Of a stretch of 64,000 nucleotides of DNA, positions 7,951-25,046 are shown piece by piece. The notes under the pieces were generated by a model. It was not told the origin of the DNA and made no database searches. It saw only the letters and a list, made by a program, of their open reading frames with translations. Position numbers and translations under genes: made by a program. Numbering within the stretch: the first letter of the stretch is position 1; each line of letters begins with the position of its first letter. Source of the stretch: Massilibacillus massiliensis. GTDB lineage: Bacteria > Bacillota > Negativicutes > FLKF01. The stretch spans positions 1,138,735 through 1,202,734 of the forward strand of contig NZ_LT575483.1 in the NCBI RefSeq assembly GCF_900086705.1, read 5' to 3'.

Positions 7951-8937
7951 TTATTTACGCTGATTTTTTGAAAGTAACAGCTTGACTTGAATATCCAACT
8001 GATTTTCTAGTGAAATAGGATCATTAGACCAAAAGTCATAACGATCAATCTCATAGAAGTGGTTGTTTTTTACTGCGGATAAATTTTTCCAGACTTGGCT
8101 TTCCATAATTTCAATCGTTTGTTTTGCGCCTCCCTCTTGCGGAGAAACTAATATAAACATATGATCTGCCGCATACTGGGGAAGCGTTTCTAACGACAGA
8201 TTGATTCCACCGTTTTTCCCAAGAATATATTGCTCGGCAGCCGCTGGCGGAGTAAATTGGAACGTTCTATATAAATTTCTGGCCCCTCTGCCATAATCTT
8301 GATTAATAACCCAAAGACCTTTACCCCAGATCTCATAAATAGCGACTGTTTCATCTTTGCCAATAACTCCAGCAATTTGCTCTCTGGCAAATTGTTCTTT
8401 AATTTCGAAATTTTTTATCCAGTCTTCTGCTTCTTTTTCTCTATCTAATATCACAGCGATTTCTCTAAGCTGATCATAAACATCTTTAGCCGACCATGGA
8501 ATCACCACTGTAGGGGCAATTTGAGAAAGTATTTCATAATTTTGTCCATCCATTGTAATGATTAAATCTGGATCTAAAGCCACAATACGTTCTACCGACT
8601 CTCCAACATCAGCAATACCCGCAATTTTATCTTGCAAAAAGGTGTATTTCATTTCTACAGAGCCAGCACCTACAGGCTTAACCCCCAAGGTCAATAAATA
8701 GCCCAAATAGTTCATCGCTACAATACGTTTTGGCTTCACAGGAATTTCAATTTCCCCCTGCAGCGTTTTGATTCTTTTCATTTCTGATCTTTCTACTGTT
8801 TTATCTTCATTTTCTATCTTATGCACATCTGCCATCGCACGCAATGAATCCACAACGCCACGGCTATATCCCACATAACATCCTAAGATGACAATCGTAA
8901 TTAAACTAAATATTAAAATTTTCTTTTTTCGAAACAT
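7951..8937 (-). CDS. Iron-complex ABC transporter substrate-binding protein (FecB/FepB-like)
   Basis: Helical-backbone metal receptor of the FecB/FhuD/BtuF class: the domain opens at about residue 55 with EIPVKPKRIVAMNYLG and has the interdomain helix region DPDLIITMDGQ. The N-terminus has a hydrophobic segment ending VILGC, compatible with a lipoprotein or a membrane anchor. The start is the sixth codon of the open frame, ATG, with GGAGG seven bases before it. It is the last gene of a four-gene importer operon (permease, permease, ATPase, binding protein). It would bind a ferric siderophore, heme or cobamide in the periplasm; context favours iron or heme. Confidence 0.88.
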   Translation of the reverse strand: MFRKKKILIFSLITIVILGCYVGYSRGVVDSLRAMADVHKIENEDKTVERSEMKRIKTLQGEIEIPVKPKRIVAMNYLGYLLTLGVKPVGAGSVEMKYTFLQDKIAGIADVGESVERIVALDPDLIITMDGQNYEILSQIAPTVVIPWSAKDVYDQLREIAVILDREKEAEDWIKNFEIKEQFAREQIAGVIGKDETVAIYEIWGKGLWVINQDYGRGARNLYRTFQFTPPAAAEQYILGKNGGINLSLETLPQYAADHMFILVSPQEGGAKQTIEIMESQVWKNLSAVKNNHFYEIDRYDFWSNDPISLENQLDIQVKLLLSKNQRK

Positions 8938-9022
8938 GATGATCCTCCACATGCGTAGTTCTACTTTTATTTAAAACACTTTCTTGCTATAAAAACAGAT
9001 CACCCCAGCATCTTATAGCAAT

Positions 9023-9814
9023 CTACGCCATTGACAATCCATAGGGTATACATAGCGGAACTCCTGTTCTCGGATCGGGGATAATATCTGCATCAATCCC
9101 AAAAATTTCGTGAAGGATCGCAGGCGTCATGACTTCTTTTGGAGATCCTTGATGCATGACTTTTCCTTTTTTTACAGCCACCATATGCTGCGCATAGCGA
9201 GCTGCATGATTTAAGTCATGCACGACCATCACGATAGTTCTGCCTTCTTCCTTGTTTAACCGACATAAAAGTTGCAACACCTCTAGCTGATGCGCCATAT
9301 CTAAAAAGCTTGTCGGCTCATCAAGAAACAAGATATCGGTCTGCTGTGCCAAAGCCATAGCAATCCATGCCCGTTGACGCTGCCCTCCCGATAAATGATC
9401 TAATTGAAAATCATAAAATTCCGTCATTCCGGTCACTTCAATCGCCCAGCTTATAATTTTTCTATCCTCTGCAGTAAGCGAACCAAAGCCTGTCTGGTTA
9501 GAAAATCGCCCATAACTAACTAATTCATACACTGTCATACCTTCAGGCGCCACCGGATTTTGAGGAAGTATTGCCAATTGTTTGGCTACTTCTTTCGTAG
9601 ATTTATGATGTATAGATTCGCCATCTAAAAAAACGCCGCCTCTTTTTGGTTTCACAATACGTGCCATAGTCTTAAGCATCGTAGATTTTCCTGAACCATT
9701 CGCACCTACTAAAACTGTAATCTTCCCTAAAGTTATATGTATATTTAAATTTTCAACAATAAGTCTATCCCCGTAGGAAATATCAAGCCGCTTTGCCTCA
9801 AATTCTTGTAACAT
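9023..9814 (-). CDS. Iron-complex ABC transporter ATP-binding protein (FecE/FhuC-like)
   Basis: 263 residues with Walker A (GANGSGKST, about residue 40), the ABC signature LSGGQRQRAW, Walker B (DILFLDEPT) and the switch His (VVHDLNHA). It hydrolyses ATP to drive import of a metal complex across the inner membrane with the two FecCD permeases just upstream, and lies 26 bases after the second permease. Standard length. Confidence 0.93.
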   Translation of the reverse strand: MLQEFEAKRLDISYGDRLIVENLNIHITLGKITVLVGANGSGKSTMLKTMARIVKPKRGGVFLDGESIHHKSTKEVAKQLAILPQNPVAPEGMTVYELVSYGRFSNQTGFGSLTAEDRKIISWAIEVTGMTEFYDFQLDHLSGGQRQRAWIAMALAQQTDILFLDEPTSFLDMAHQLEVLQLLCRLNKEEGRTIVMVVHDLNHAARYAQHMVAVKKGKVMHQGSPKEVMTPAILHEIFGIDADIIPDPRTGVPLCIPYGLSMA

Positions 9815-9840
9815 AGCTATGGCCTCCTTTCGTTTCTGTT

Positions 9841-10878
9841 CTATGAATGCTTGGATCTTGCTAGTAAATATAAGAAATACGGTGTACCAATCACTGCAAT
9901 TACAATACCTGTAGGTATTTCAGCCGGTTGAAAAAGAACACGCGCTACGATATCGGCGATGATAAATAAAAGACTTCCCACCAAGGCTGCGGCGGGTATA
10001 AGCAATTGATGCTGATTTCCTACCAATTGCCTTGCCAGATGAGGGCCAATTAATCCCACAAAGCCAATCGCGCCGCTAACAGCAGAACAAGCACTAGCCA
10101 AACCTACAGCTGCAGCCAGCAAAGCAAAGCGTTCTTTTTCCAAATCAAGACCTACGCCAACAGCAATTTGATCACCCAATCCTAATATATTGAGAACGCG
10201 CGCTTTATAAAATACAAATGGAATGAGTACGAGTAACCACGGCATCAGCGCTAAGATAAAACTCCAGTTACTCCCCCAAATACTGCCTGCTAGCCAAACT
10301 GAAATAAAATGATAATCGTTTGGATTCATACGAATTGTAAAGATAATCATAGCCGCAGATAGCCCTGCGGCCACAGCGATTCCAACCAAAACTAATGAAA
10401 CGCCTGATAATCCCTGATTTCGTTGGTAAGCTAAGATATAAATCATCCCGGCCGCCAAACTTGCACCTATAAAAGCGATAAAAGGTAATAAAAACACGGA
10501 TATACCCGCTTGGATTGGGTAAAAGCTAATAAACAAAACGACTGCCATTCCAGCCCCGGCATTAATGCCTAAAATTCCTGGATCAGCAAGTGGATTTCGT
10601 GATACCCCCTGTAAGATACATCCCGATAAAGACAAAGCCGCTCCTACAAATACCGCAATTACAATTCGAGGAAGACGTAAATCCAGCAATACCAAATTTT
10701 GCTTTGCCGTACCAAACCCCAAAAGTATTTCTAGCATCTCCCTAAAATTTAAGTGGATATACCCAATATTCATACTAATGATAAAAAATGTTATGACAAG
10801 CAGGGCTAATATAGCCAATACAGCATATCCTCGAAGCTGTTTAGCTCGCTCTGCAATAGGAATTGTCACTTCTTGCAT
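9841..10878 (-). CDS. FecCD-family iron-complex permease (second subunit)
   Basis: 345 residues, about ten membrane helices, with the FecCD hallmarks GCILQGVSRNPLADPGILG (near residue 85), GAIGFVGLIGPHLARQLVG (near 265) and an EIPTGI loop near the end. It pairs with the upstream permease to form the channel of a siderophore/heme/B12-type importer. Its ATG overlaps the stop of the upstream permease by one base (TAATG), so the two are translationally coupled. Confidence 0.92.
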   Translation of the reverse strand: MQEVTIPIAERAKQLRGYAVLAILALLVITFFIISMNIGYIHLNFREMLEILLGFGTAKQNLVLLDLRLPRIVIAVFVGAALSLSGCILQGVSRNPLADPGILGINAGAGMAVVLFISFYPIQAGISVFLLPFIAFIGASLAAGMIYILAYQRNQGLSGVSLVLVGIAVAAGLSAAMIIFTIRMNPNDYHFISVWLAGSIWGSNWSFILALMPWLLVLIPFVFYKARVLNILGLGDQIAVGVGLDLEKERFALLAAAVGLASACSAVSGAIGFVGLIGPHLARQLVGNQHQLLIPAAALVGSLLFIIADIVARVLFQPAEIPTGIVIAVIGTPYFLYLLARSKHS

Positions 10879-11918
10879 TACATGGCCCTCCTATGTCTGC
10901 GTGCTAAATAAAGAAAAAATGGAACGCCAAGGAAGGTTATAATCGCACCAATTGGTGTTTCGTTTGGTGGATTGACCATACGAGCCCCAATATCAGCAAA
11001 AATCATCAGTACACTTCCCAATATTGCTGAACATGGAATAATCGATCGATAATCGACGCCTACTAAATAACGGGCGATATGAGGAATCACAAGTCCAACA
11101 AACCCGATAGATCCAACAGTTGATACACTGGCACCGGCTAAAATCAATACCAAAATTCCTCCGCAGAACTTCACAGTAGTTACTTTCACACCTAGGCCGG
11201 CGGCCACTTCTTCGCCCAGACTAAGCAACGTAATAAAACGCGACAGTATAAGAGATCCTATAAGCCCAAGGATAATCCAAGGAAAAATAACTTTTATTTG
11301 TAGCCACTTGATCCCAGAGATTCCCCCAGCGTACCAAAATGCCAATTCTTGATCGATTCGATAATAAATCGCAATTCCTCCACTTAAAGCAATGAGTAAG
11401 GAAGCTACAGCAGTACCTGCCAAAGTCAGCCGCAATGGACTCAATCCTCCTCTAGCCATAGAACCGATGCCATATACAAGTCCCATACTAACGGCTGCAC
11501 CCATAAAAGAATATAAAATAAGATAGTTAAATGGTAAATTCTTAAAAAAAGCAAAACAAATCGCCAAAGCAAATCCTGCTCCGGCGTTAATACCTAACAG
11601 CCCGGGATCGGCTAAAGGATTGCGCGTCATGCCTTGCATGATAGCACCGGCTACAGCAAAAGCTGCTCCTACCAAAGCACTTGCTGCGACTCTAGGTAAA
11701 CGTAGTTCCTGAACAATCAAATGCGCATGTAATTCAGGGTTAAAATTGAAAATTGCGTTCCATACAGTGGACAGAGGAACTTTTACTGCTCCGATTGATA
11801 TGGACACCAACATGCCAAGTACCAAAGCGACAAAGCTACACGCCAAAACTATCAAAACCCGGTTCGGACATGCGCTTGCTTTTTCATTATTTGCTACAAT
11901 TTCTGAGCATCTATGCAT
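10878..11918 (-). CDS. FecCD-family iron-complex permease (first subunit)
   Basis: 346 residues, about ten membrane helices, with GAIMQGMTRNPLADPGLLG and GSIGFVGLVIPHIARYLVG, the conserved FecCD segments. First gene of the operon; GAGGAGG lies about ten bases before the ATG and a Fur-like box is 136 bases upstream of the start. The two permeases are related but clearly different, as expected for a heterodimer (FecC/FecD or FepD/FepG type). Confidence 0.92.
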   Translation of the reverse strand: MHRCSEIVANNEKASACPNRVLIVLACSFVALVLGMLVSISIGAVKVPLSTVWNAIFNFNPELHAHLIVQELRLPRVAASALVGAAFAVAGAIMQGMTRNPLADPGLLGINAGAGFALAICFAFFKNLPFNYLILYSFMGAAVSMGLVYGIGSMARGGLSPLRLTLAGTAVASLLIALSGGIAIYYRIDQELAFWYAGGISGIKWLQIKVIFPWIILGLIGSLILSRFITLLSLGEEVAAGLGVKVTTVKFCGGILVLILAGASVSTVGSIGFVGLVIPHIARYLVGVDYRSIIPCSAILGSVLMIFADIGARMVNPPNETPIGAIITFLGVPFFLYLARRHRRAM

Positions 11919-12053
11919 TCCTATGAAATCCTCCTCTGAAAATTACGACCAACAAAAGTATCAGTTTCGTATGTACGATAATACCTTTTAACTGATTCAT
12001 CACTTTCGTGCAATTGCAATATCTTAAACGAACGAAATAGTCCATTCTTTATT

Positions 12054-12072
12054 GATAACGAAAATCATTACC
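12054..12072 (-). promoter_or_regulatory. Fur-like box upstream of the FecCD operon
   Basis: The 19-mer GATAACGAAAATCATTACC matches the classical Fur consensus GATAATGATAATCATTATC at 16 of 19 positions. It lies between the TonB receptor terminator and the first permease, so the importer is expected to be iron-repressed. Confidence 0.7.
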
Positions 12073-12240
12073 GCTTGAAATTATAGTATAGATGATGAAA
12101 TCTTGTCAAGACACATCCATAGAAATCTCCTTCTGCGGATCGCTAAACAACGCCTTTAGGAATTTTTCTTCTTAAAAGAAGAGCTACTTATAAAATCGTA
12201 CACGTTAGGCAACGCTCGGCCTTGATCATAACGGATCTTT

Positions 12241-12287
12241 AAAATAAACAGGTACTGCTCTCATGAAATGATGAGCAATACCTGTTC
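12241..12287 (-). terminator. Terminator of the 12.3-14.2 kb TonB receptor gene
   Basis: Arms AACAGGTACTGCTCTCAT (12247-12264) and ATGAGCAATACCTGTT (12271-12286) pair almost fully, and a T-rich run follows on the minus strand. Confidence 0.75.
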
Positions 12288-12310
12288 AGCCTCCATTGTT
12301 ACTTATTTAG

Positions 12311-14233
12311 TTAAAATTGTTTTTCCACACCAATTACAAAGCTTCTTCCAGGCATCGGATATTTACCCGGTACTTTATAATATTCAGGCGAGGTTCCAAT
12401 GACTTCATACGCTTGATTTGTCAAATTATACCCTTTTAAATAAACTTGTGTATCTTTTGCAGCCCGATAACGGATATTCATATCTAGGGTAAAATATGAA
12501 TCAGAGGTATATGCTCTCTTATCGCGCCCTGTTCCAGACAGCATCGTTATTCCCGCATCCAATTTATCTTTGCTATATTGAATACCTAAAGAATATCCAT
12601 TTGGCCGGCTATTTAGAGGATCTAGAATATAATTATCTGTTCCCCCTTGTTGTTTTTCAATTTTTGAATAAGAATAACCTGCATTGACCTTCCATTGCTC
12701 AGATAATTTTCTTTGTAAATTGATCTCCATCCCCTGTCTCTTTTCACGATCCACATTCATCCACATTCCTTGACTACCGACGACTCCTGATTTCCATACA
12801 ATTGCATTTTCTAAATCACTACGGTAAATACTGGATTGCAGTGTAGTCTTATGATCTAATTTCATATCCAATCCCAGTGTAAATGTATCTGAAGACTCCG
12901 GTTTCAAATCTTTATTACCTAACCAACTTGGTGTATTTGCATATAGATCCAACAATCTTGGATTTCTGACGGCTTGTCCCCAGGATATATATACATTTGT
13001 ATCCGTTGCTACTTCTTTACTCAAAGATACATGAGAGGTAACCTCACCACCAAATGTGTCATGATGATCATAACGACTACCGAAGTTTAAGGACATATCA
13101 TCTTTTAATTTTAAATTATTTTCTATGAATACCGCTTTCGTAGTTGCATCAGCTTTCATATACTTTGAACTGTTAAAATCGTTAACCTTCTCTTGCCGAA
13201 TATCTGTACCACCGGTCATAGTATAGTTATCATTCAGTTGCCAACTTTGCTGCCATTCTGCACCATTTACTTTAAGATCATGCCACAAAATGCCGTACGG
13301 CCAATGTGCAGTTTCTTCACTGGTATTTTGATAAATTCGAAAGCTATTCGCATTATTTTTTTCTTTTCCCCATGAATAAGTCAATGCGACATTTAAATCT
13401 GAAACACGTCGGCGCTCATCCGGATTAGAAATTGTACCAGCATCTACATCTTTTAGTGCTAAACCATAGCCCCCGCGATCTTCCATACGTTCGATTGACA
13501 AAGAAAGTTCACTATCATCATCAAGCTGTTTATCGATACGCAACGTTTGATGCTCTTTATCAATTTCACTGGCTTTAAATTCTCTACTGTTTCCTGTTCG
13601 TGGGTTTTTATAGTCAAAATTACCTCTCGTTTGTTTATCATATGTAAATATATAACTTATATCATTATCAACACCTTCGGTCGTTAAAGCATAACGCCTT
13701 GAATTCCATGATCCAAATTCTGTTGTTGCCTTCGTAACATTTTCTTTTGCTTTTTTCGTAATAATATTGATGACACCACCAACTGCATCACTACCATACA
13801 AAGCTGAATTCGGTCCGCGCACAATTTCAATACGTTCAATATTTTCAATCGCAATATTATCAATATTCAGCCCATTAAAACTACCTGTAGTAGAATAATA
13901 TGCCCAAGTCATTTTTCTGCCATCTACTAGTACAAGAACTCTATCATCTCCATTAAGAATTGGAAAAGAAGCATAACTACTGGTTCCCATATTAACATTA
14001 TTCGCAGTTAATACGTCAGAAATCTTACTATATCCGCCTTTTTCAATCTCTTCATTTCCTATAACTGTAACATTCGCCGCAACTTCACTCTTTTTTACTG
14101 GAACACGAGTTGCGGTCACGACATATTCATCAAAATCAAATTCCTGTTCTTCAGCATACGCATCATTTGCTATTCCAAACGATATTGCACCGCAAATTAA
14201 AGTACACAGTAAGCCCTTGGTCTTCTTGTCCAT
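12311..14233 (-). CDS. TonB-dependent outer-membrane receptor (CirA/BtuB-like)
   Basis: 640 residues: signal peptide, a TonB-box region followed by FDEYVVTATRVPVKKSEV, a plug domain (about 45-155, with IERIEIVRGPNSALYGSDAVGGVINIITKK) and a 22-strand beta-barrel ending in an aromatic residue (VIGVEKQF). In the barrel, RNPRLLDLY...LKPES corresponds to the conserved block that in heme receptors carries FRAP and NPNL; the exact heme motif is not present. It moves an iron complex, heme or corrinoid across the outer membrane using TonB. It sits between the heme-degradation genes and the FecBCDE importer, so heme or a ferric complex is likely, but the ligand is not proven. Confidence 0.88.
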   Translation of the reverse strand: MDKKTKGLLCTLICGAISFGIANDAYAEEQEFDFDEYVVTATRVPVKKSEVAANVTVIGNEEIEKGGYSKISDVLTANNVNMGTSSYASFPILNGDDRVLVLVDGRKMTWAYYSTTGSFNGLNIDNIAIENIERIEIVRGPNSALYGSDAVGGVINIITKKAKENVTKATTEFGSWNSRRYALTTEGVDNDISYIFTYDKQTRGNFDYKNPRTGNSREFKASEIDKEHQTLRIDKQLDDDSELSLSIERMEDRGGYGLALKDVDAGTISNPDERRRVSDLNVALTYSWGKEKNNANSFRIYQNTSEETAHWPYGILWHDLKVNGAEWQQSWQLNDNYTMTGGTDIRQEKVNDFNSSKYMKADATTKAVFIENNLKLKDDMSLNFGSRYDHHDTFGGEVTSHVSLSKEVATDTNVYISWGQAVRNPRLLDLYANTPSWLGNKDLKPESSDTFTLGLDMKLDHKTTLQSSIYRSDLENAIVWKSGVVGSQGMWMNVDREKRQGMEINLQRKLSEQWKVNAGYSYSKIEKQQGGTDNYILDPLNSRPNGYSLGIQYSKDKLDAGITMLSGTGRDKRAYTSDSYFTLDMNIRYRAAKDTQVYLKGYNLTNQAYEVIGTSPEYYKVPGKYPMPGRSFVIGVEKQF

Positions 14234-14630: not shown

Positions 14631-16106
14631 TTATGCCTTAGCAAACCCCGCTCCTATTGCCGGATGCCCTTCTGGCATATGTTGGATTTTGGGATGTAAT
14701 TTCATTGCCCCATCTTGTGCGGCAATTTTTTGCACAGCTAAACTTTTTTCCCCAGTTACTAAGATTTGAATACATTCTACCGTAGTCTGTGATAGATTGA
14801 CCTGCCAGAATTGACCAGCAAGCGTTAATTCATAAAGAATCCCGTTGTATTTTACAAGACCACGCTCTTCCCATAGTTTATATAGCCATTGCAACTCACT
14901 CAAGCGAGGTTCTGCCTGAATCAATCGTTGTAAGTCTAAGAAACCTTGCTCTAGCTGTCCCAAAACAGTATTTATGATTGGTTGCAATGGAGATTGTTCC
15001 ATCAGTACCATACATGGTTTTTTTTCTTCTTTTACCAATTTTTCATAAACGGGAAGCATTCTGTGCAGCATCGTTGTATAACCTCCGATACTACCTCCGG
15101 CACCGCAACCAAAAGGAAACATATCTCGCCCTTCTTTTGCCAAGATATTATAAAGACTTCGCTCTCTGTTATTACGCGTCCAATGACAGATGCTAAGACG
15201 TTTAAAAGCTCGTTTTGTCAAAAAGTCATGTGCAAAGGAAAACATTTCTGCCTGCCGTGCAGTATCAGCAGCCGGAGACATTTTCCCCGCTTGAATGCGC
15301 TTGTTCATTTCACTTTCTTCAAACACATTAAGCTGATATAAATCCATACCATCCACCGCTGATGCAGACAAAAGTTCCAAATCTTCTTTCCACAGCTTCA
15401 TATCTTGGTCAGGTAAACCGTAGATCAGATCAACAATCACTGCACATTGCTGATAAGCTTTTAATTCTGCCAATCTTTTTAGCACTGTTTCTTGATCGTC
15501 AATTCGTCCTAATTGGCGTCGAATATGCGTATGAAACGATTGTACACCCAAAGACATTCTATTGACACCATGCTTCATCCATATATCCATTTTTTCCGGC
15601 ACTAAATCGTAAATGCGTCCTTCCAACGTTAATTCATAATCATTAGCCAACGGTAAACAATCGTGAATGGTTTGTAACAGACGTTTTGCATTTTGTGGTG
15701 ATAAAGAGGTCGGCGTTCCACCCCCAATAAAAACTGCATGTATCAGACCATCTTTCATTTGCGGTACTGCGGCAGAAGCTTCTATTTCCTGTATTAAACA
15801 GTCAATATACTTATCTTCGATCGCTTGATTCGCAGCATTTTGAAAAAAATTACAATATAAACATCTAGTCTGACAGAAAGGAATATGAATATAAACGGAA
15901 CGAGGCGCCATCTGCTCGGGCACAGAAAACATGATTTTTTCCCATACACCTTGTGTTTGGTCTGCCTTTACCGGTCTCCCTGTCAAACCAGCATGAACTA
16001 CTCTTTTATGAGGAAATGCACCAGTCAGCGGATCGACATTTTGATAACCAAATTGTAATGCTGCTTCTTCCTTTGAAAGAGTCTGCATAATCGTCTCTAG
16101 TTTCAT
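14631..16106 (-). CDS. HutW/ChuW-like radical SAM heme-degrading enzyme
   Basis: 491 residues. The radical SAM cluster motif is CQTRCLYCNFF (C-x3-C-x2-C) near residue 80, preceded by VYIHIPF and followed by FIGGGTPTSL and SLGVQSFH, as in the HemN/HemW superfamily. The additional N-terminal segment, the flavodoxin partner and the iron-uptake setting favour the ChuW/HutW branch, which opens the heme ring anaerobically and releases iron without oxygen. The C-terminus ends in a small extra segment with PEGHPAIGAGF; a similar PTGHP is found in the flavodoxin. The start overlaps the flavodoxin stop by 4 bases. A HemN/HemW-type function is the alternative but fits the context less well. Confidence 0.82.
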   Translation of the reverse strand: MKLETIMQTLSKEEAALQFGYQNVDPLTGAFPHKRVVHAGLTGRPVKADQTQGVWEKIMFSVPEQMAPRSVYIHIPFCQTRCLYCNFFQNAANQAIEDKYIDCLIQEIEASAAVPQMKDGLIHAVFIGGGTPTSLSPQNAKRLLQTIHDCLPLANDYELTLEGRIYDLVPEKMDIWMKHGVNRMSLGVQSFHTHIRRQLGRIDDQETVLKRLAELKAYQQCAVIVDLIYGLPDQDMKLWKEDLELLSASAVDGMDLYQLNVFEESEMNKRIQAGKMSPAADTARQAEMFSFAHDFLTKRAFKRLSICHWTRNNRERSLYNILAKEGRDMFPFGCGAGGSIGGYTTMLHRMLPVYEKLVKEEKKPCMVLMEQSPLQPIINTVLGQLEQGFLDLQRLIQAEPRLSELQWLYKLWEERGLVKYNGILYELTLAGQFWQVNLSQTTVECIQILVTGEKSLAVQKIAAQDGAMKLHPKIQHMPEGHPAIGAGFAKA

Positions 16107-16630
16107 AAAGCAGAATTCTCCAATCGTTTTAATGTTTCAACGACAAAATTTCTAGCTGCTTGCAAATCTCTATCATCTGGATGCACCGATGCTCGTTCAT
16201 GCAGTTTTTCTCTTTCAGATGTCACAGCATGCGGATGTCCAGTCGGGAACATTTTTTTCATTTGCTCAATTAAATTCGGGTCAACTTTACCTTGACAAAT
16301 AAATGTATGAATCGGCATTGCATTAGACGGCAACAGTGCTATCGCGTTTTGCATACTTGATGTTGCATGCTCTGAATCCGGATCTGCACCAAGTGTAGCA
16401 AATAATGCAACTTTAGGATGATGTAATCTTTCTAATAATTTTTTTGACTGTGCATCAGCTGTTCCACGATCAACCCAAAAGCCTACAAAAACACAATCGT
16501 AAGCATCCAAATTTTCTGGGGCATCCGCCACTGACAGGCATGGTGTCTCATTAGGTAAAACGCTGCAAATTTCTTTGGCAATTTTCTCAGTATTGCCTGT
16601 TCTTGATGAGTATAAAACGATACAATTCAT
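16103..16630 (-). CDS. Flavodoxin partner of the heme-degradation enzyme
   Basis: 175 residues with the FMN phosphate loop YSSRTGNTEKIA at the N-terminus and the following strands YDCVFVGFWVDRG and VALFATLGA typical of flavodoxins. The C-terminal 40 residues (PTGHPHAVTSE... ASVHPDDRDL) extend beyond the flavodoxin core. It probably supplies electrons to the radical SAM enzyme with which it is translationally coupled, as in the HmuW/HmuF-type anaerobic heme systems of other bacteria. Shine-Dalgarno GGAGG precedes the ATG. Electron transfer role is inferred from context. Confidence 0.85.
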   Translation of the reverse strand: MNCIVLYSSRTGNTEKIAKEICSVLPNETPCLSVADAPENLDAYDCVFVGFWVDRGTADAQSKKLLERLHHPKVALFATLGADPDSEHATSSMQNAIALLPSNAMPIHTFICQGKVDPNLIEQMKKMFPTGHPHAVTSEREKLHERASVHPDDRDLQAARNFVVETLKRLENSAL

Positions 16631-16785: not shown

Positions 16786-17865
16786 CTATTTTTCATAAAG
16801 AAAAGCGGCTAATACACTCAATGCTTTTTCCATCTGAATACCAGGATTGACTGCAAATAAAGAATACGGGAGTTTATATATGCGTCTATTTTTCTGCAGC
16901 GTATTTAGTTTCTGCCATGGTGAATGCAGGAGTGATGTATTCTTTTGATTTTCCCCTCCACTCAAATGATGATCGACAAATAAAATAACATCAATTTGAA
17001 TTTCTGTAATCGTCTCAAAATCCAGCGGAGCATATGCTAATTTTTCATCTTTAATTGTGATTAAATCAAATACATTGACGCCGCCCAATCTTTTTACCAT
17101 ATCGCCAACAAAACTTGTAGAAAGTGCTGCATATAATTCGCCGTCAATAGACCAAACAACCAGCACTCTTGGCGAAGGTTGCTCACCAATTTGTTCAATT
17201 AATTGTTGTCGATGTTTTTCAATCACACCAATCTTTTTTTCCGCTATTTTTTCTGTGCCATTTAATTCACCATAAAAACATAATCCTTCCAAAACACTTG
17301 CATAATTAGAAAATGTTTGTAATATAGTTGGAATTCCTTTTCTTTCTAAAACAGCTGCTAATGATCGATATGTCGGAAATGCCATACCAATAACTAAATC
17401 TGGTTTCATCTCGACAATACGCTTAAGGTCAGGATTTTCCGGTATCCCTACTTCTGGAATATCCTTAACTTTATCTTCTAATATGGCCGGCAACCGATCA
17501 CTTGTCCCCCTGCCAATCGGCATACCGCCAGTTGCAACATACAATCCTAAATTAGATGAATTTAAAATAACCACCCGACGTGGATGACTTGGGATCTCAA
17601 CCAGTCTACCGGCACTATCCGTAACCATACGATTTTGAATATCGCCAGATTTATCTAACTGTCGTCTCGGCGAATTTCGCTTTTGAATCCGACTATCTCC
17701 CTTATGGTTTAAAAGCTGAATTGTCCCACATTTTGGGCACTTGATTTCGACCTTTTCTACGATTCCGCGAAACAACAAACTATTACAAAAAACACATCGG
17801 ACAGGACACAAATCCTCGTGAGACTCATGCCATATATCTTGCACAAGTCTATCATATCCCAACAC
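16786..17865 (-). CDS. Com-like zinc finger fused to a signal-less metal-receptor domain
   Basis: About 359 residues. Residues 20-50 hold CPVRCVFCNSLLFRG and VEIKCPKCG, a four-cysteine zinc ribbon (Cys 24, 27, 43, 46) that looks like the Com translational regulator of phage Mu, where the same spacing and the N-x-LLF block occur. From about residue 81 the protein is a FecB/BtuF-type helical-backbone metal receptor (TDSAGRLVEIPSHPRRVVIL, MKPDLVIGMAF). There is no signal peptide or lipobox, so the receptor part should stay in the cytoplasm. It heads the unit with the flavodoxin and radical SAM enzyme, behind a Fur-like box. The start is uncertain: a GTG at 17865 has GAGGGAG ten bases away, and an earlier GTG at 17874 abuts it. 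A cytoplasmic heme/iron-complex sensor or carrier acting on nucleic acid is a possible role, by inference only. Confidence 0.8.
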   Translation of the reverse strand: MLGYDRLVQDIWHESHEDLCPVRCVFCNSLLFRGIVEKVEIKCPKCGTIQLLNHKGDSRIQKRNSPRRQLDKSGDIQNRMVTDSAGRLVEIPSHPRRVVILNSSNLGLYVATGGMPIGRGTSDRLPAILEDKVKDIPEVGIPENPDLKRIVEMKPDLVIGMAFPTYRSLAAVLERKGIPTILQTFSNYASVLEGLCFYGELNGTEKIAEKKIGVIEKHRQQLIEQIGEQPSPRVLVVWSIDGELYAALSTSFVGDMVKRLGGVNVFDLITIKDEKLAYAPLDFETITEIQIDVILFVDHHLSGGENQKNTSLLHSPWQKLNTLQKNRRIYKLPYSLFAVNPGIQMEKALSVLAAFLYEK

Positions 17866-17898
17866 GCAAATCACTCTCCCTCATTTTTCCATTTTCGC

Positions 17899-17944
17899 AA
17901 AATAAAAAGAGCTCCATACATAACTTAATTACGTAATGAAGCTC
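17899..17944 (-). terminator. Terminator-like hairpin in the leader of the heme operon
   Basis: On the minus strand, GAGCTTCAT pairs with ATGGAGCTC (9 bp, one G-U) around an 18-base loop and is followed by TTTTTATTTT. It lies between the Fur-like box and the Com-fusion gene, about 35-80 bases before the start, so it is either an attenuator of this operon or a relic terminator. Confidence 0.6.
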
Positions 17945-18032
17945 CAGGCTTTCTTAAACATTACCGCAACCAACGAAGGATAGCAGTACTTTACTTTTTC
18001 TGATTTAATACACATCTTGTTTATAATATAGC

Positions 18033-18051
18033 GTAGATGAGAATCATTGTC
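18033..18051 (-). promoter_or_regulatory. Fur-like box upstream of the heme-degradation operon
   Basis: GTAGATGAGAATCATTGTC matches the Fur consensus at 14 of 19 positions, with the core GAGAATCATTGTC well kept. It lies after the terminator of the upstream receptor gene and about 160 bases before the first gene of the heme unit, giving a long leader. Confidence 0.6.
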
Positions 18052-18222
18052 AATATATTTTAGAATTGATGTTAAAATTCCTTACAGGTTATACCTATAT
18101 TCTAAAACATTTACCTTTAAGGAAGTTTTTATTTGCAGAAAATATTTAATGTATAAAATTAATTCTAAATTACAGATTCACCGTTGCACGACATAGTAGT
18201 TTTCACCTTTATCCTATCATCT

Positions 18223-22005: not shown

Positions 22006-23172
22006 TTACGGATTTACCGTTGCACGGTATAATTGTTTACCATCTTTAAATTCTATAATTGCAGCACCTTTTACGGCATCGTGTGTTTCATTTAAAGTCG
22101 TAGAGCCAGTGATTGCTTGATAATCCTTAGTTGCTGCCAAAGCTTCGCGAATTTTATTTGCCTCTGTGCTTTTTGCTCGTTCAATTGCATCCATCATAAC
22201 GTTCATCGCATCATAGCCAAGAACAGCCGGTGCATCTGGTTTTTGACCATATTCTTTCATATAAGCATCCACAAAAGCTTTAGATACTGGATTTGGATCA
22301 TCTACAGAATAATGATTCGTAAAGAATGTATTATTCAGCGCTTCACCGCCGGCAATCTCAACAAGTTTAGGAGAATCCCAGCCATCACCACCAACGATAG
22401 GCAGATTCAGCCCAATTTCACGTGCTTGTTTAATAATTTTGCCAACCTCTTCATAATAGCCAGGTACATAAATTACGTCTGCTCCCATCGTCTTAATCTT
22501 GGTTAAGATGGTTTTAAAGTCTTGGTCTTTTTGTAGATACGCTTCTTCACCTACAATTTCTCCACCTTTTTCAGTGTAAGCCTTTTTAAAGAAAGATGCC
22601 AAGCCTTTACTATAGTCACTGCTGTTATCAATTAACATCACAGTTTTTTTGAGTTTTAATTCATCCAAGACGAAATTTGCTCCAACAGTGCCTTGGAATG
22701 GGTCAATAAAACATACGCGGAACGTATAATCTTTTACTTTTCCGTCATCGCCTACCGTTACTTTAGGATTCGTTGCACCAACTGTAAGGAAAGGTATTTT
22801 ACTTGCTTCTGCTACACTAGAAGCTGCAATCGCACTGGAACTTGTAAAAATCCCCGTCACAGCAATCGCTTTATCCTGATTGATAATTTTTGTCATCGCA
22901 TTTGCTGATTCAGACGGTTCACTTTTGTTATCTGCAATTACAGTTGAAACTTGTTTACCAAGTACACCGCCTTTTGCGTTTTTCTCTTTGATCGCCAATT
23001 TGGCTCCATTTACAAGTGATGTACCATACGTAGCACTGCCCCCCGTCATTTCTGCAACCATACCAATTTTGATATCTTTCGCATCAGAGCCGCCACCACA
23101 ACCTGCTAATGCTGTTGCAGTCAAACAAGTACCAATAAAAATCGCTAAAAGTTTCTTCTTGCTAAAATTCAT
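22006..23172 (-). CDS. LivK-type amino acid ABC substrate-binding lipoprotein (paralogue 1)
   Basis: About 388 residues. A signal peptide ends in the lipobox LAGC followed by GGGS, then a periplasmic-binding fold of the Leu/Ile/Val class (KIGMVAEMTGGSATYG, MLIDNSSDYSKGLASFFKKAY). It should bind an amino acid or amide in the periplasm. It is very similar to its neighbour at 23471-24640. No permease or ATPase of the Liv type lies nearby, so it must use a transporter encoded elsewhere. The start is the tenth codon of the open frame, preceded by GAAGGGGG. It has its own promoter and a structured leader. Confidence 0.88.
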   Translation of the reverse strand: MNFSKKKLLAIFIGTCLTATALAGCGGGSDAKDIKIGMVAEMTGGSATYGTSLVNGAKLAIKEKNAKGGVLGKQVSTVIADNKSEPSESANAMTKIINQDKAIAVTGIFTSSSAIAASSVAEASKIPFLTVGATNPKVTVGDDGKVKDYTFRVCFIDPFQGTVGANFVLDELKLKKTVMLIDNSSDYSKGLASFFKKAYTEKGGEIVGEEAYLQKDQDFKTILTKIKTMGADVIYVPGYYEEVGKIIKQAREIGLNLPIVGGDGWDSPKLVEIAGGEALNNTFFTNHYSVDDPNPVSKAFVDAYMKEYGQKPDAPAVLGYDAMNVMMDAIERAKSTEANKIREALAATKDYQAITGSTTLNETHDAVKGAAIIEFKDGKQLYRATVNP

Positions 23173-23242
23173 AGTTACAATACCCCCTTCTATTTTCAAT
23201 GGATGACCATGCGTAGAATCCTCTTCTGCAAGATAGATTTAT

Positions 23243-23282
23243 AAAATAAAAAAGAGTCAAACCACAATCTATGGTTTGACTC
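23243..23282 (-). terminator. Leader terminator of LivK paralogue 1
   Basis: Stem GAGTCAAACC/GGTTTGACTC (plus-strand 23254-23263 and 23273-23282) with a minus-strand T run TTTTTTATTTT. It lies 70 bases ahead of the start codon and about 75 bases after the mapped promoter, so it can act as an attenuator. It may equally end read-through from paralogue 2. Confidence 0.65.
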
Positions 23283-23363
23283 TGAATAGCTTTCATTGCT
23301 ATTTTCGATGTCGAAAATAATCCTGCTGTTCTTATTTGATTATCTATCTCTTAGAATAATGTT

Positions 23364-23392
23364 ATTATAATCGATGTTTTTTTCTTATGCAA
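23364..23392 (-). promoter_or_regulatory. Promoter of LivK paralogue 1
   Basis: On the minus strand TTGCAT (23387-23392), exactly 17 bases, TATAAT (23364-23369). The transcript would start near 23357 and carry a leader of about 185 bases with hairpins ATTTTCGA/TCGAAAAT and AATAGC/GCTATT before the terminator stem. No known aptamer is recognised in it. Confidence 0.7.
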
Positions 23393-23470
23393 TACTTTTT
23401 TGTAAAATAGATGATGTATACAACGTACATTATACCTGTATGAAAATACACAGGAGCATGCAACATGCCT

Positions 23471-24640
23471 TTAAGGCTTTACACTCGTATTGAATACTTG
23501 CTTTCCATCTTTCATTTCAATAATCACTGCACTTTTCACCGCATCATGCGTCGCATTGATTGTCGTTTCACCACTAATTGCATCGAAATTGGTTGTTGCA
23601 GCCAGTGCTTCACGAATTTTTTCCGGTTCCGCACTGTTTGCTCTTTTCATCGCGTCAATCAGTACACGTGCCGCATCATATCCAAGTACAGCCAAAGCAT
23701 CTGGTTTTTGACCATATTCTTTGGTATAAGCCTCAACAAACGCTTTTGCTTTAGCATCATCTGCATCTACAGAATAATGATTTGTAAAATACGTTTGATT
23801 CAGTGCACGATTTCCGGCAATCTCCGCTAGTTTAGGAGAATCCCAACCATCGCCGCCAATCATCACCGCTTCAATCCCAAGCTCACGTGCCTGCTTTACA
23901 ATCTTCCCAACCTCTTCATAATAGCCAGGGATATAGATAACTTCTGCATTTAAGCTTTTTATCTTCGTTAATATGGTTTTAAAATCTTGATCTTTCTGTA
24001 AATAAGCTTCTTCACCTAAAATTTCTCCGCCTTTTGCCGTGTAAGCCTTTTTGAAGAAATCACCAAGCCCTTTACTATAATCACTGCTATTATCAATCAA
24101 CATAACCGCTTTTTTCAATTTTAAATGATCAAAAACAAAATTCGCAGCAACTGTACCTTGAAATGGATCAATAAAACATACGCGGAAAACATAGTCGTTC
24201 ACTTTGCCGGTTTTTTCATCCACTGTTACTTTTGGATTGGTCGCACCGGAAGCAAGATAAGGTACTTTCGCAGCTTCAGCGACACTTGCAGCAGCGATTG
24301 CATTCGAACTTGAGAATGTACCTGTAACCGCAACCACTTTATCCTGATTGATCAATTTTGTCATAGCATTTGCAGCTTCTGCTGGTTCAGATTTATTATC
24401 TGCCGCAACAGATTCTATTTGTTTGCCCAAAACGCCGCCATTCGCATTGGCTTCCTTAATTGCCAAATTTGCCCCGTTGGCAGATGATGTCCCCAATGTT
24501 GCAGCGCCGCCAGTCATCTCATTTAATAAACCGATTTTAATTTTATTAGAATCTCCGCCACCGCAACCAGACATTACGCTCATAAGCAGCAACGTCACCA
24601 TCATCCACATCCATACCGCTTTTTTACTTTTGTTTCTCAT
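23471..24640 (-). CDS. LivK-type amino acid ABC substrate-binding lipoprotein (paralogue 2)
   Basis: About 389 residues, with lipobox VMSGC followed by GGGDS and the same binding-protein fold as its neighbour (shared blocks include VCFIDPFQGTV and YLQKDQDFKTILTKIK). Start is the ninth codon, preceded by GAGGGGG. It is controlled by the tandem glycine riboswitch at 24858-25046, which points to glycine, or a compound tied to glycine supply, as ligand; Liv-type proteins otherwise bind branched-chain amino acids, amides or urea. No cognate membrane subunits are in the window. Confidence 0.88.
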   Translation of the reverse strand: MRNKSKKAVWMWMMVTLLLMSVMSGCGGGDSNKIKIGLLNEMTGGAATLGTSSANGANLAIKEANANGGVLGKQIESVAADNKSEPAEAANAMTKLINQDKVVAVTGTFSSSNAIAAASVAEAAKVPYLASGATNPKVTVDEKTGKVNDYVFRVCFIDPFQGTVAANFVFDHLKLKKAVMLIDNSSDYSKGLGDFFKKAYTAKGGEILGEEAYLQKDQDFKTILTKIKSLNAEVIYIPGYYEEVGKIVKQARELGIEAVMIGGDGWDSPKLAEIAGNRALNQTYFTNHYSVDADDAKAKAFVEAYTKEYGQKPDALAVLGYDAARVLIDAMKRANSAEPEKIREALAATTNFDAISGETTINATHDAVKSAVIIEMKDGKQVFNTSVKP

Positions 24641-24741
24641 AAATAAACGCCCCCTCTTTTCCAATCAAACCAACATTTTATCCTGCATTTCAGAAACAAT
24701 CCATTTGCAATTGAAACAAAGAAGGGTAGTTCACGCCTTAG

Positions 24742-24775: not shown

Positions 24776-24857
24776 TGTATTTACTAAGAAACTTACGGCA
24801 AAATAATAGCACAAGAAATAAAGAATACATGCATCCTGTATACTTAATTGCTACCAT

Positions 24858-25046
24858 TTGTCTCTGTCCTTTTGCCTGAGAGATTTGCAAACAATTTTCA
24901 CTGTCTGTTTTCACCTTCGGCGACCCATTTAAGGGTACTCTCCAGAGTCCCGTCCATTTACGGTTCTACTCAAAAATTTTGAGTACCTGAGAGTGTTACT
25001 CCTTCGGTGGGCTAAATTGCCGCTCTTCCGTAGACTTCATCCGGTA
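24858..25046 (-). ncRNA. Tandem glycine riboswitch
   Basis: Read on the minus strand, two glycine aptamers follow each other. Aptamer I contains CACCGAAGGAGTAAC and ACTCTCAGGTA; aptamer II contains CGCCGAAGGTGAAAA and the diagnostic CTCTCAGGCAAAAGGACAG. These are the conserved GCCGAAGG and CTCAGG(C)AAAAGGAC blocks of the family. The RNA sits between a good promoter (25084-25112) and an intrinsic terminator (24742-24775) upstream of LivK paralogue 2. Most tandem glycine riboswitches are on-switches for glycine cleavage or export; here the target is a binding protein, so the direction of control is open. Confidence 0.92.

Follow-up and report, generated by a model that had tools for sequence, protein, structure and literature searches.

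A Com-type zinc finger fused to a FecB/IsdE-type receptor domain: a candidate RNA-binding regulator of heme genes in Massilibacillus massiliensis and other Negativicutes

The Com-receptor gene and its product

In Massilibacillus massiliensis, a member of the Negativicutes, a gene within the 64,000-nucleotide stretch analysed here (contig NZ_LT575483.1, positions 1,138,735 to 1,202,734 of assembly GCF_900086705.1; "the window") encodes a Com zinc finger that is fused to a receptor domain of the FecB/BtuF/IsdE type, and the leader of this gene carries a predicted Com operator that overlaps an intrinsic terminator (Table 1). The gene is followed by a BilS/HmuF-like flavodoxin gene and a ChuW/HutW gene, which bears out its preliminary description as the head of a heme-degradation operon. 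We propose that the fusion protein probably acts in the cytoplasm as an RNA-binding, ligand-responsive regulator of heme genes, in which the finger would prevent termination and the receptor domain would sense heme.

Table 1. Features of the Com-receptor locus in window coordinates
Feature	Position	Strand	Basis
Promoter TTGACA-17-TATATT, overlapping Fur-box-like ATGATTCTCAT	18025..18053	-	consensus match only, 11/12 matches
Predicted Com RNA operator GAAAGCC-UG-GAGCUUC, tandem motif, small hairpin AAGC/GCUU	17938..17953	-	match to covariance model R1
Intrinsic terminator stem-loop, 5' arm = second operator half	17908..17945	-	RNAfold; conserved stem with compensatory changes in relatives
U-rich tail of leader terminator	17901..17907	-	
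Ribosome-binding site GAGGGAG before GTG 17865	17876..17882	-	read from sequence
Com-receptor fusion protein, 359 aa (Com zinc finger, 41-residue linker, FecB/IsdE-type receptor domain)	16786..17865	-	
Com zinc finger, residues 22-56, C24/C27/C43/C46	17698..17802	-	PF10122, invariant cysteines, structure model
FecB/BtuF/IsdE-type receptor domain, residues 98-330	16876..17574	-	PF01497, PDB profile match, fold matches
Flavodoxin, BilS/HmuF-like, second gene of the unit	16103..16630	-	PF12641 186.8 bits; NCBIfam BilS 120.7 bits
ChuW/HutW anaerobic heme-degradation radical SAM enzyme	14631..16106	-	TIGR04107 495.7 bits (cut-off 400)

The open reading frame (16786..17874, reverse strand) is a single stop-free frame of 362 amino acids when read from GTG 17874, but the preferred start is GTG 17865, which has its ribosome-binding site at a normal distance and is aligned with the ATG of homologues. 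Zn_ribbon_Com (24.6 bits, cut-off 22.9) and Peripla_BP_2 (72.3 bits) are the only Pfam domains above cut-off in the protein, and Pfam and NCBIfam searches found neither a helix-turn-helix nor a BglG/LicT co-antiterminator domain. In 11 full-length homologues, which come from genomes independent of each other, the four finger cysteines are invariant. This rules out a frameshift or an assembly error and makes it unlikely that translation begins no earlier than the receptor domain. The fusion of both parts in one unbroken frame, as initially described, is thereby confirmed. The cysteines are also invariant across 45 Com fingers, and the whole 4.0 Mb source genome contains only one Com finger, that of the fusion gene. 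A structure model of the finger alone is four-stranded with a confident core (predicted local distance difference test, pLDDT, about 90 at residues 21-50); it gave no significant fold match in the PDB, which is without any Com structure. The AlphaFold model of the full protein (11 sequences) was of moderate quality (pLDDT 72.6), with finger and linker poorly modelled, and a contact between finger and receptor domain cannot be claimed from it.

The preliminary description was also right in that the protein has no signal peptide, and there is no lipobox either. The highest 19-residue hydropathy within the first 100 residues is at most 1.2 in 20/20 Com-receptors, as compared to at least 1.92 in 15/15 signal-bearing paralogues, and in view of this and of the conserved cysteines an exported form of the protein is not credible.

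Among proteins of solved structure, IsdE (2q8p; E 2.8e-22 in a PDB profile search) is the best match to the receptor domain, and fold matches agree with this. H299 is aligned with His229 of IsdE, which we take to be, together with Met78, a ligand of the heme iron, and this histidine is invariant in all 20 Com-receptor proteins. Because of the IsdE-like domain with its retained histidine, and because HutW and a BilS/HmuF-like flavodoxin are encoded downstream, the signal is likely to be heme or one of its products, with heme itself being a reasonably likely ligand. The receptor domain thus resembles IsdE/HtsA/BtuF-type binding proteins in fold and sequence, but differs from them by the lack of a signal peptide or lipobox, by the attached RNA-binding-type finger, and by the absence of an adjoining permease gene in the window.

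A leader RNA with overlapping operator and terminator

Between promoter and start codon, at 17901-17956 on the reverse strand, lies a conserved leader that is positioned outside the region covered by the preliminary description (16786-17874) and had been missed there. Its design is a tandem GAGNNCC-N2-4-GAGNNCC site, part of which also serves as 5' arm of an intrinsic terminator, and its consensus is AGAGAGCC-N2-4-GAGCUCCGU, followed by a loop and ACGGAGYUUUUU, usually downstream of a promoter with a Fur-box-like sequence. The leader of the window matches our covariance model R1 with 49.8 bits (E 6e-11), and its 56 nucleotides fold at -18.3 kcal/mol (RNAfold). As the second operator half is the 5' arm of the terminator, operator hairpin and terminator are mutually exclusive.

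Both structures are conserved as RNA pairings. In an alignment of 49 leader copies, the operator hairpin is paired in 99.5% of cells (as compared to no more than 53% in slid controls) and shows double compensatory changes in two of its four pairs, and the terminator stem is paired in 98.4%, with 17 doubly changed cells; what these counts show is narrowed by the fact that the seeds were Com loci, picked by a fixed regular expression. Less dependent on the seeds are the motif test and the genome-wide search described below. The leader is absent from Rfam: the sole match of the window was a glycine riboswitch, and two relatives gave none at the leader up to E 0.5.

Agreement with the published RNA specificity of Com

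After the leader had already been found, we read the study in which systematic evolution of ligands by exponential enrichment (SELEX) with a Mu-like Com yielded the RNA motif NGAGNNCC(N)2-3GAGNNCCNN (PMC6483171). The native mom site is GAAUGCCUGCGAGCAUCCC, with the pattern GAAUGCC-UGC-GAGCAUC, and Com reads CC(N)2-3GAG in a hairpin loop, in which GA is protected (PMC6483171). The leader consensus GAGAGCC-N2-GAGCUCC fits the SELEX motif, and the operator of the window resembles the native mom site. The exact SELEX motif occurs within 250 bases upstream of 15 of the 20 Com-receptor genes (shuffled sequences: 0.03%, a rate of 0.0003), and before 20 of 261 other genes of the same loci, all of which are heme-receptor, TonB or TonB-dependent-receptor genes. 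In two Com phages, a similar motif directly precedes the methyltransferase gene that follows com. Taken as it stands, this agreement strongly supports an RNA binding of the fusion protein at the leader, which we regard as very probable.

With phage Mu Com (PF10122), the fusion protein has in common the CxxC-x15-CxxC finger and the invariant residues of phage Com proteins, and the leaders share with its operator the tandem GA(G/A)NNCC halves around a short hairpin. The differences are that the fusion is chromosomal, without phage genes around, and carries a receptor domain, so that it comprises 359 residues as compared to about 62 in stand-alone phage Com, and that the operator, found in the leaders of heme operons, lies on an intrinsic terminator and not by a start codon.

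Distribution of fusions, stand-alone Com genes and leaders

In a survey of 380 genomes of the class, the full-length fusion was found in ten genomes other than that of the window (11 in total; G and L numbers are our genome and locus handles). Five homologues are 61-66% identical (G304; G313, Sporomusaceae UBA7701; G074, Pelosinus propionicus; and G073 and G078, metagenome-assembled genomes (MAGs) of Pelosinus) and five 41-51% (G292, Anaerospora hongkongensis; G079, an uncultured Selenomonadales MAG; G298, Sporomusa ovata; G092, Propionispora; and G080). Nine genomes contain a shorter Com-receptor, in which the linker is reduced and the receptor domain is truncated at its N-terminus. In eight of these (all but G080) the gene is transcribed away from heme/TonB genes or lies beside them at a contig end, and the heme operon has its own signal-bearing receptor wherever it is visible. 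That the two fusion forms arose only once is neither demonstrated nor rejected (p-AU 0.19). No relative was found on plasmids. A single-sequence scan of genome contigs gave no match, whereas a profile scan did.

The gene order receptor-flavodoxin-HutW of the window recurs in G304, G074, G073 and G078, and in G313 all three genes lie within 5 kb. In four genomes (G079, G298, G092, G292) a FecC permease gene follows immediately after the fusion gene, in operons that also encode a signal-bearing receptor, and in G287 a stand-alone Com gene occupies the same place. Such stand-alone Com proteins of 52-105 residues are encoded at the head of heme operons in many genomes of the class, directly upstream of heme-receptor genes with gaps of 0-41 bases (G081, G095, G135, G136, G294), or directly upstream of tonB or exbB. 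The same operon context thus holds Com and receptor as neighbours, as a fusion, or Com alone. Open reading frames of unusual length (about 1600 residues) that resemble TonB-dependent receptors adjoin Com-receptor or HutW genes in G304 and G313 (L032 10591-15381, L033 13724-18505, L132).

Model R1 was run on all 380 genomes, and matches with E < 1e-4 were taken as strong leaders. These occur in 20 genomes, which represent 10 families, and every one of the 20 also belongs to the 25 genomes that have a Com finger above the Pfam cut-off (Fisher p 5e-29; as related genomes are not independent in this test, the family count is the more reliable figure). Almost all of the strong leaders are followed by genes for the fusion, Com, receptors, TonB, ExbB or TonB receptors. 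The source genome has two leaders, one before the fusion gene and one before a TonB-receptor-ExbB-ExbD-TonB operon, and both belong to the rarer GAAAGCC/GAGCUUC subtype. Weak leaders precede flavodoxin-like genes, with the sequence GAAAGUC-UUU-GAACUUC in three genomes (L136 G064, L137 G065, L138 G066) and GAAAGCC-UUU-GAGCUUC in G096 (L095 11683-11743), and the bases of the operator stem have changed in pairs.

Other classes of the phylum have stand-alone Com genes too, next to acyl-CoA operons and with similar operator-terminator leaders that have GAGCCCC arms, which indicates that the pairing of Com with terminator leaders is wider than heme, and Com antitermination may be a general regulatory class. 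At these loci (L147-L158, L165-L169) the Com gene is flanked by sigma-54 activator-like genes on one side and by acetyl-CoA acetyltransferase/acyl-CoA dehydrogenase-like operons on the other, as judged from gene names read from sequence alone, and most of them have GAGAGCC-N3-GAGCCCC terminator leaders.

Proposed mechanism and alternatives

Mechanistically, iron limitation would open the promoter, initiation being probably under iron/Fur control, and RNA polymerase would produce the operator before the terminator. A Com finger bound to the operator hairpin would keep GAGCUUC out of the terminator and should therefore block termination, as the two structures exclude each other. Transcription would then read through into the fusion gene, the flavodoxin gene and hutW, and, by action in trans, into the TonB-receptor-ExbB-ExbD-TonB operon. 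The IsdE-like domain, having lost its signal peptide, would sense cytoplasmic heme or a heme product and tune the finger, and read-through would thus probably be under heme control. Antitermination is the likely direction of the Com effect. Two known systems are similar in part. In BglG/LicT-RAT systems, a short protein-binding hairpin overlaps the 5' arm of an intrinsic terminator, as does the operator described here, but the protein fold is unrelated, the RNA motif is another one, and there are no domains of the PRD type controlled by the phosphotransferase system. Btr/YbbB of Bacillus combines an AraC domain with a FecB-like receptor and is a cytoplasmic ligand sensor that binds DNA through the AraC helix-turn-helix. 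It shares with the fusion protein the principle of a FecB-like receptor attached to a nucleic-acid-binding domain, and the C-terminal part of the Btr model matches the FecB of the window, but in our case a Com finger and an RNA operator take the place of the AraC helix-turn-helix.

Several observations weigh against the proposed antitermination by a heme-sensing fusion protein, in addition to the above-mentioned choice of seeds. With -2.8 kcal/mol by itself, the short operator stem is weak as compared to the strong terminator. The operator of the window departs from the strict SELEX consensus, even if it is in keeping with the native mom site, and the exact motif is likewise missing at the genes of G304, G313, G080 and S080. 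Met78, the second heme ligand of IsdE, is not kept in Com-receptors, the stand-alone Com genes show that regulation can work without a fused receptor, and the weak leaders of G064-G066 occur in genomes without detectable Com.

What alternatives exist? The best of them, which we nevertheless regard as rather unlikely, retains the RNA target with another output, either a control of translation or a terminator that is held closed as an attenuator until heme releases it. Mu Com indeed activates translation via a hairpin adjoining an inhibitory structure (PMC6483171), and the sign of a ligand control is not readable from sequence. In the leaders, however, the operator has bases in common with a terminator that possesses a U tract and does not cover the start codon, and for Com the GA and CC bases must be exposed in the loop, which is incompatible with the terminator.

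It is improbable that the fusion protein is mainly a cytoplasmic heme carrier that hands heme to the HmuF-like flavodoxin or to HutW, with the zinc finger serving protein contacts. The IsdE-like domain and the shared gene order with flavodoxin and HutW would suit such a role, but HmuF already traffics heme to HmuW (PMC10404700), and the flavodoxin encoded between the fusion gene and hutW is of the HmuF group, which makes a carrier function less likely. Moreover, Com stands alone at the same operon place in G287, the shorter fusions are arranged divergently from the heme operon as is typical for regulators, and the leader operator would be left unexplained. Of the functions considered in the preliminary description, a cytoplasmic receptor that controls mRNA is therefore strongly supported by the Com-type operator in its own leader and in the co-regulated heme/TonB leaders, whereas supplying the radical SAM enzyme with heme is less likely to be its main role and might be a second one.

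Some Com proteins are annotated as DNA-binding, one paper names Com so, and the divergent layout in the genomes with shorter fusions would be compatible with a transcription factor whose finger binds the operator as DNA. This is very improbable, as the specificity of Com was measured on RNA (PMC6483171), and as the conserved site is downstream of the promoter, joined to a terminator, with paired changes that keep RNA pairing. The notion of a periplasmic binding protein whose N-terminus was misread, for which the usual location of the receptor family and the position before FecC genes in four genomes could be adduced, can practically be dismissed, since a hydrophobic segment is absent in 20/20 proteins, the finger is conserved in every copy, and the four FecC operons encode a signal-bearing receptor anyway.

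To our knowledge, Com has so far been an oddity of phage Mu with one target. From the findings, Com fingers emerge as regulators that are encoded on chromosomes and serve a leader-RNA regulon in no fewer than 10 families. Their operator agrees with a SELEX result that was obtained independently, and antitermination suggests itself as their usual mode. With somewhat less confidence than for the regulator itself, we lean towards a new class of chromosomal RNA regulators, in which Com fingers would prevent termination at tandem GAGNNCC leaders, here as a heme-sensing antiterminator for heme import and anaerobic breakdown, and elsewhere for other operons such as fatty-acid genes outside the Negativicutes. 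If this holds true, anaerobes would have a heme-sensing mechanism outside the known DNA-binding sensors, in which a transport receptor has turned into a cytoplasmic sensor, and the small protein-RNA-ligand system would be open to direct test. In the open-access literature we found no earlier description of such a regulator or of the Com-receptor combination, in line with the preliminary description, which knew of none.

Neighbouring genes in the window

The flavodoxin scores below the BilS cut-off of 155 bits, but its position is equivalent to that of HmuF, and its gene is overlapped by hutW by 4 bases. After hutW, at 7951-14233 on the reverse strand, follow a TonB receptor gene and genes of the FecC, FecC, FecE and FecB types; of these, the gene for the TonB receptor is preceded by a Fur-box-like promoter but not by a Com leader. 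The glycine riboswitch (RF00504, 64.6 bits, 24854-24955, reverse strand) lies upstream of two tandem receptor genes of the branched-chain-amino-acid type (22006-24664).
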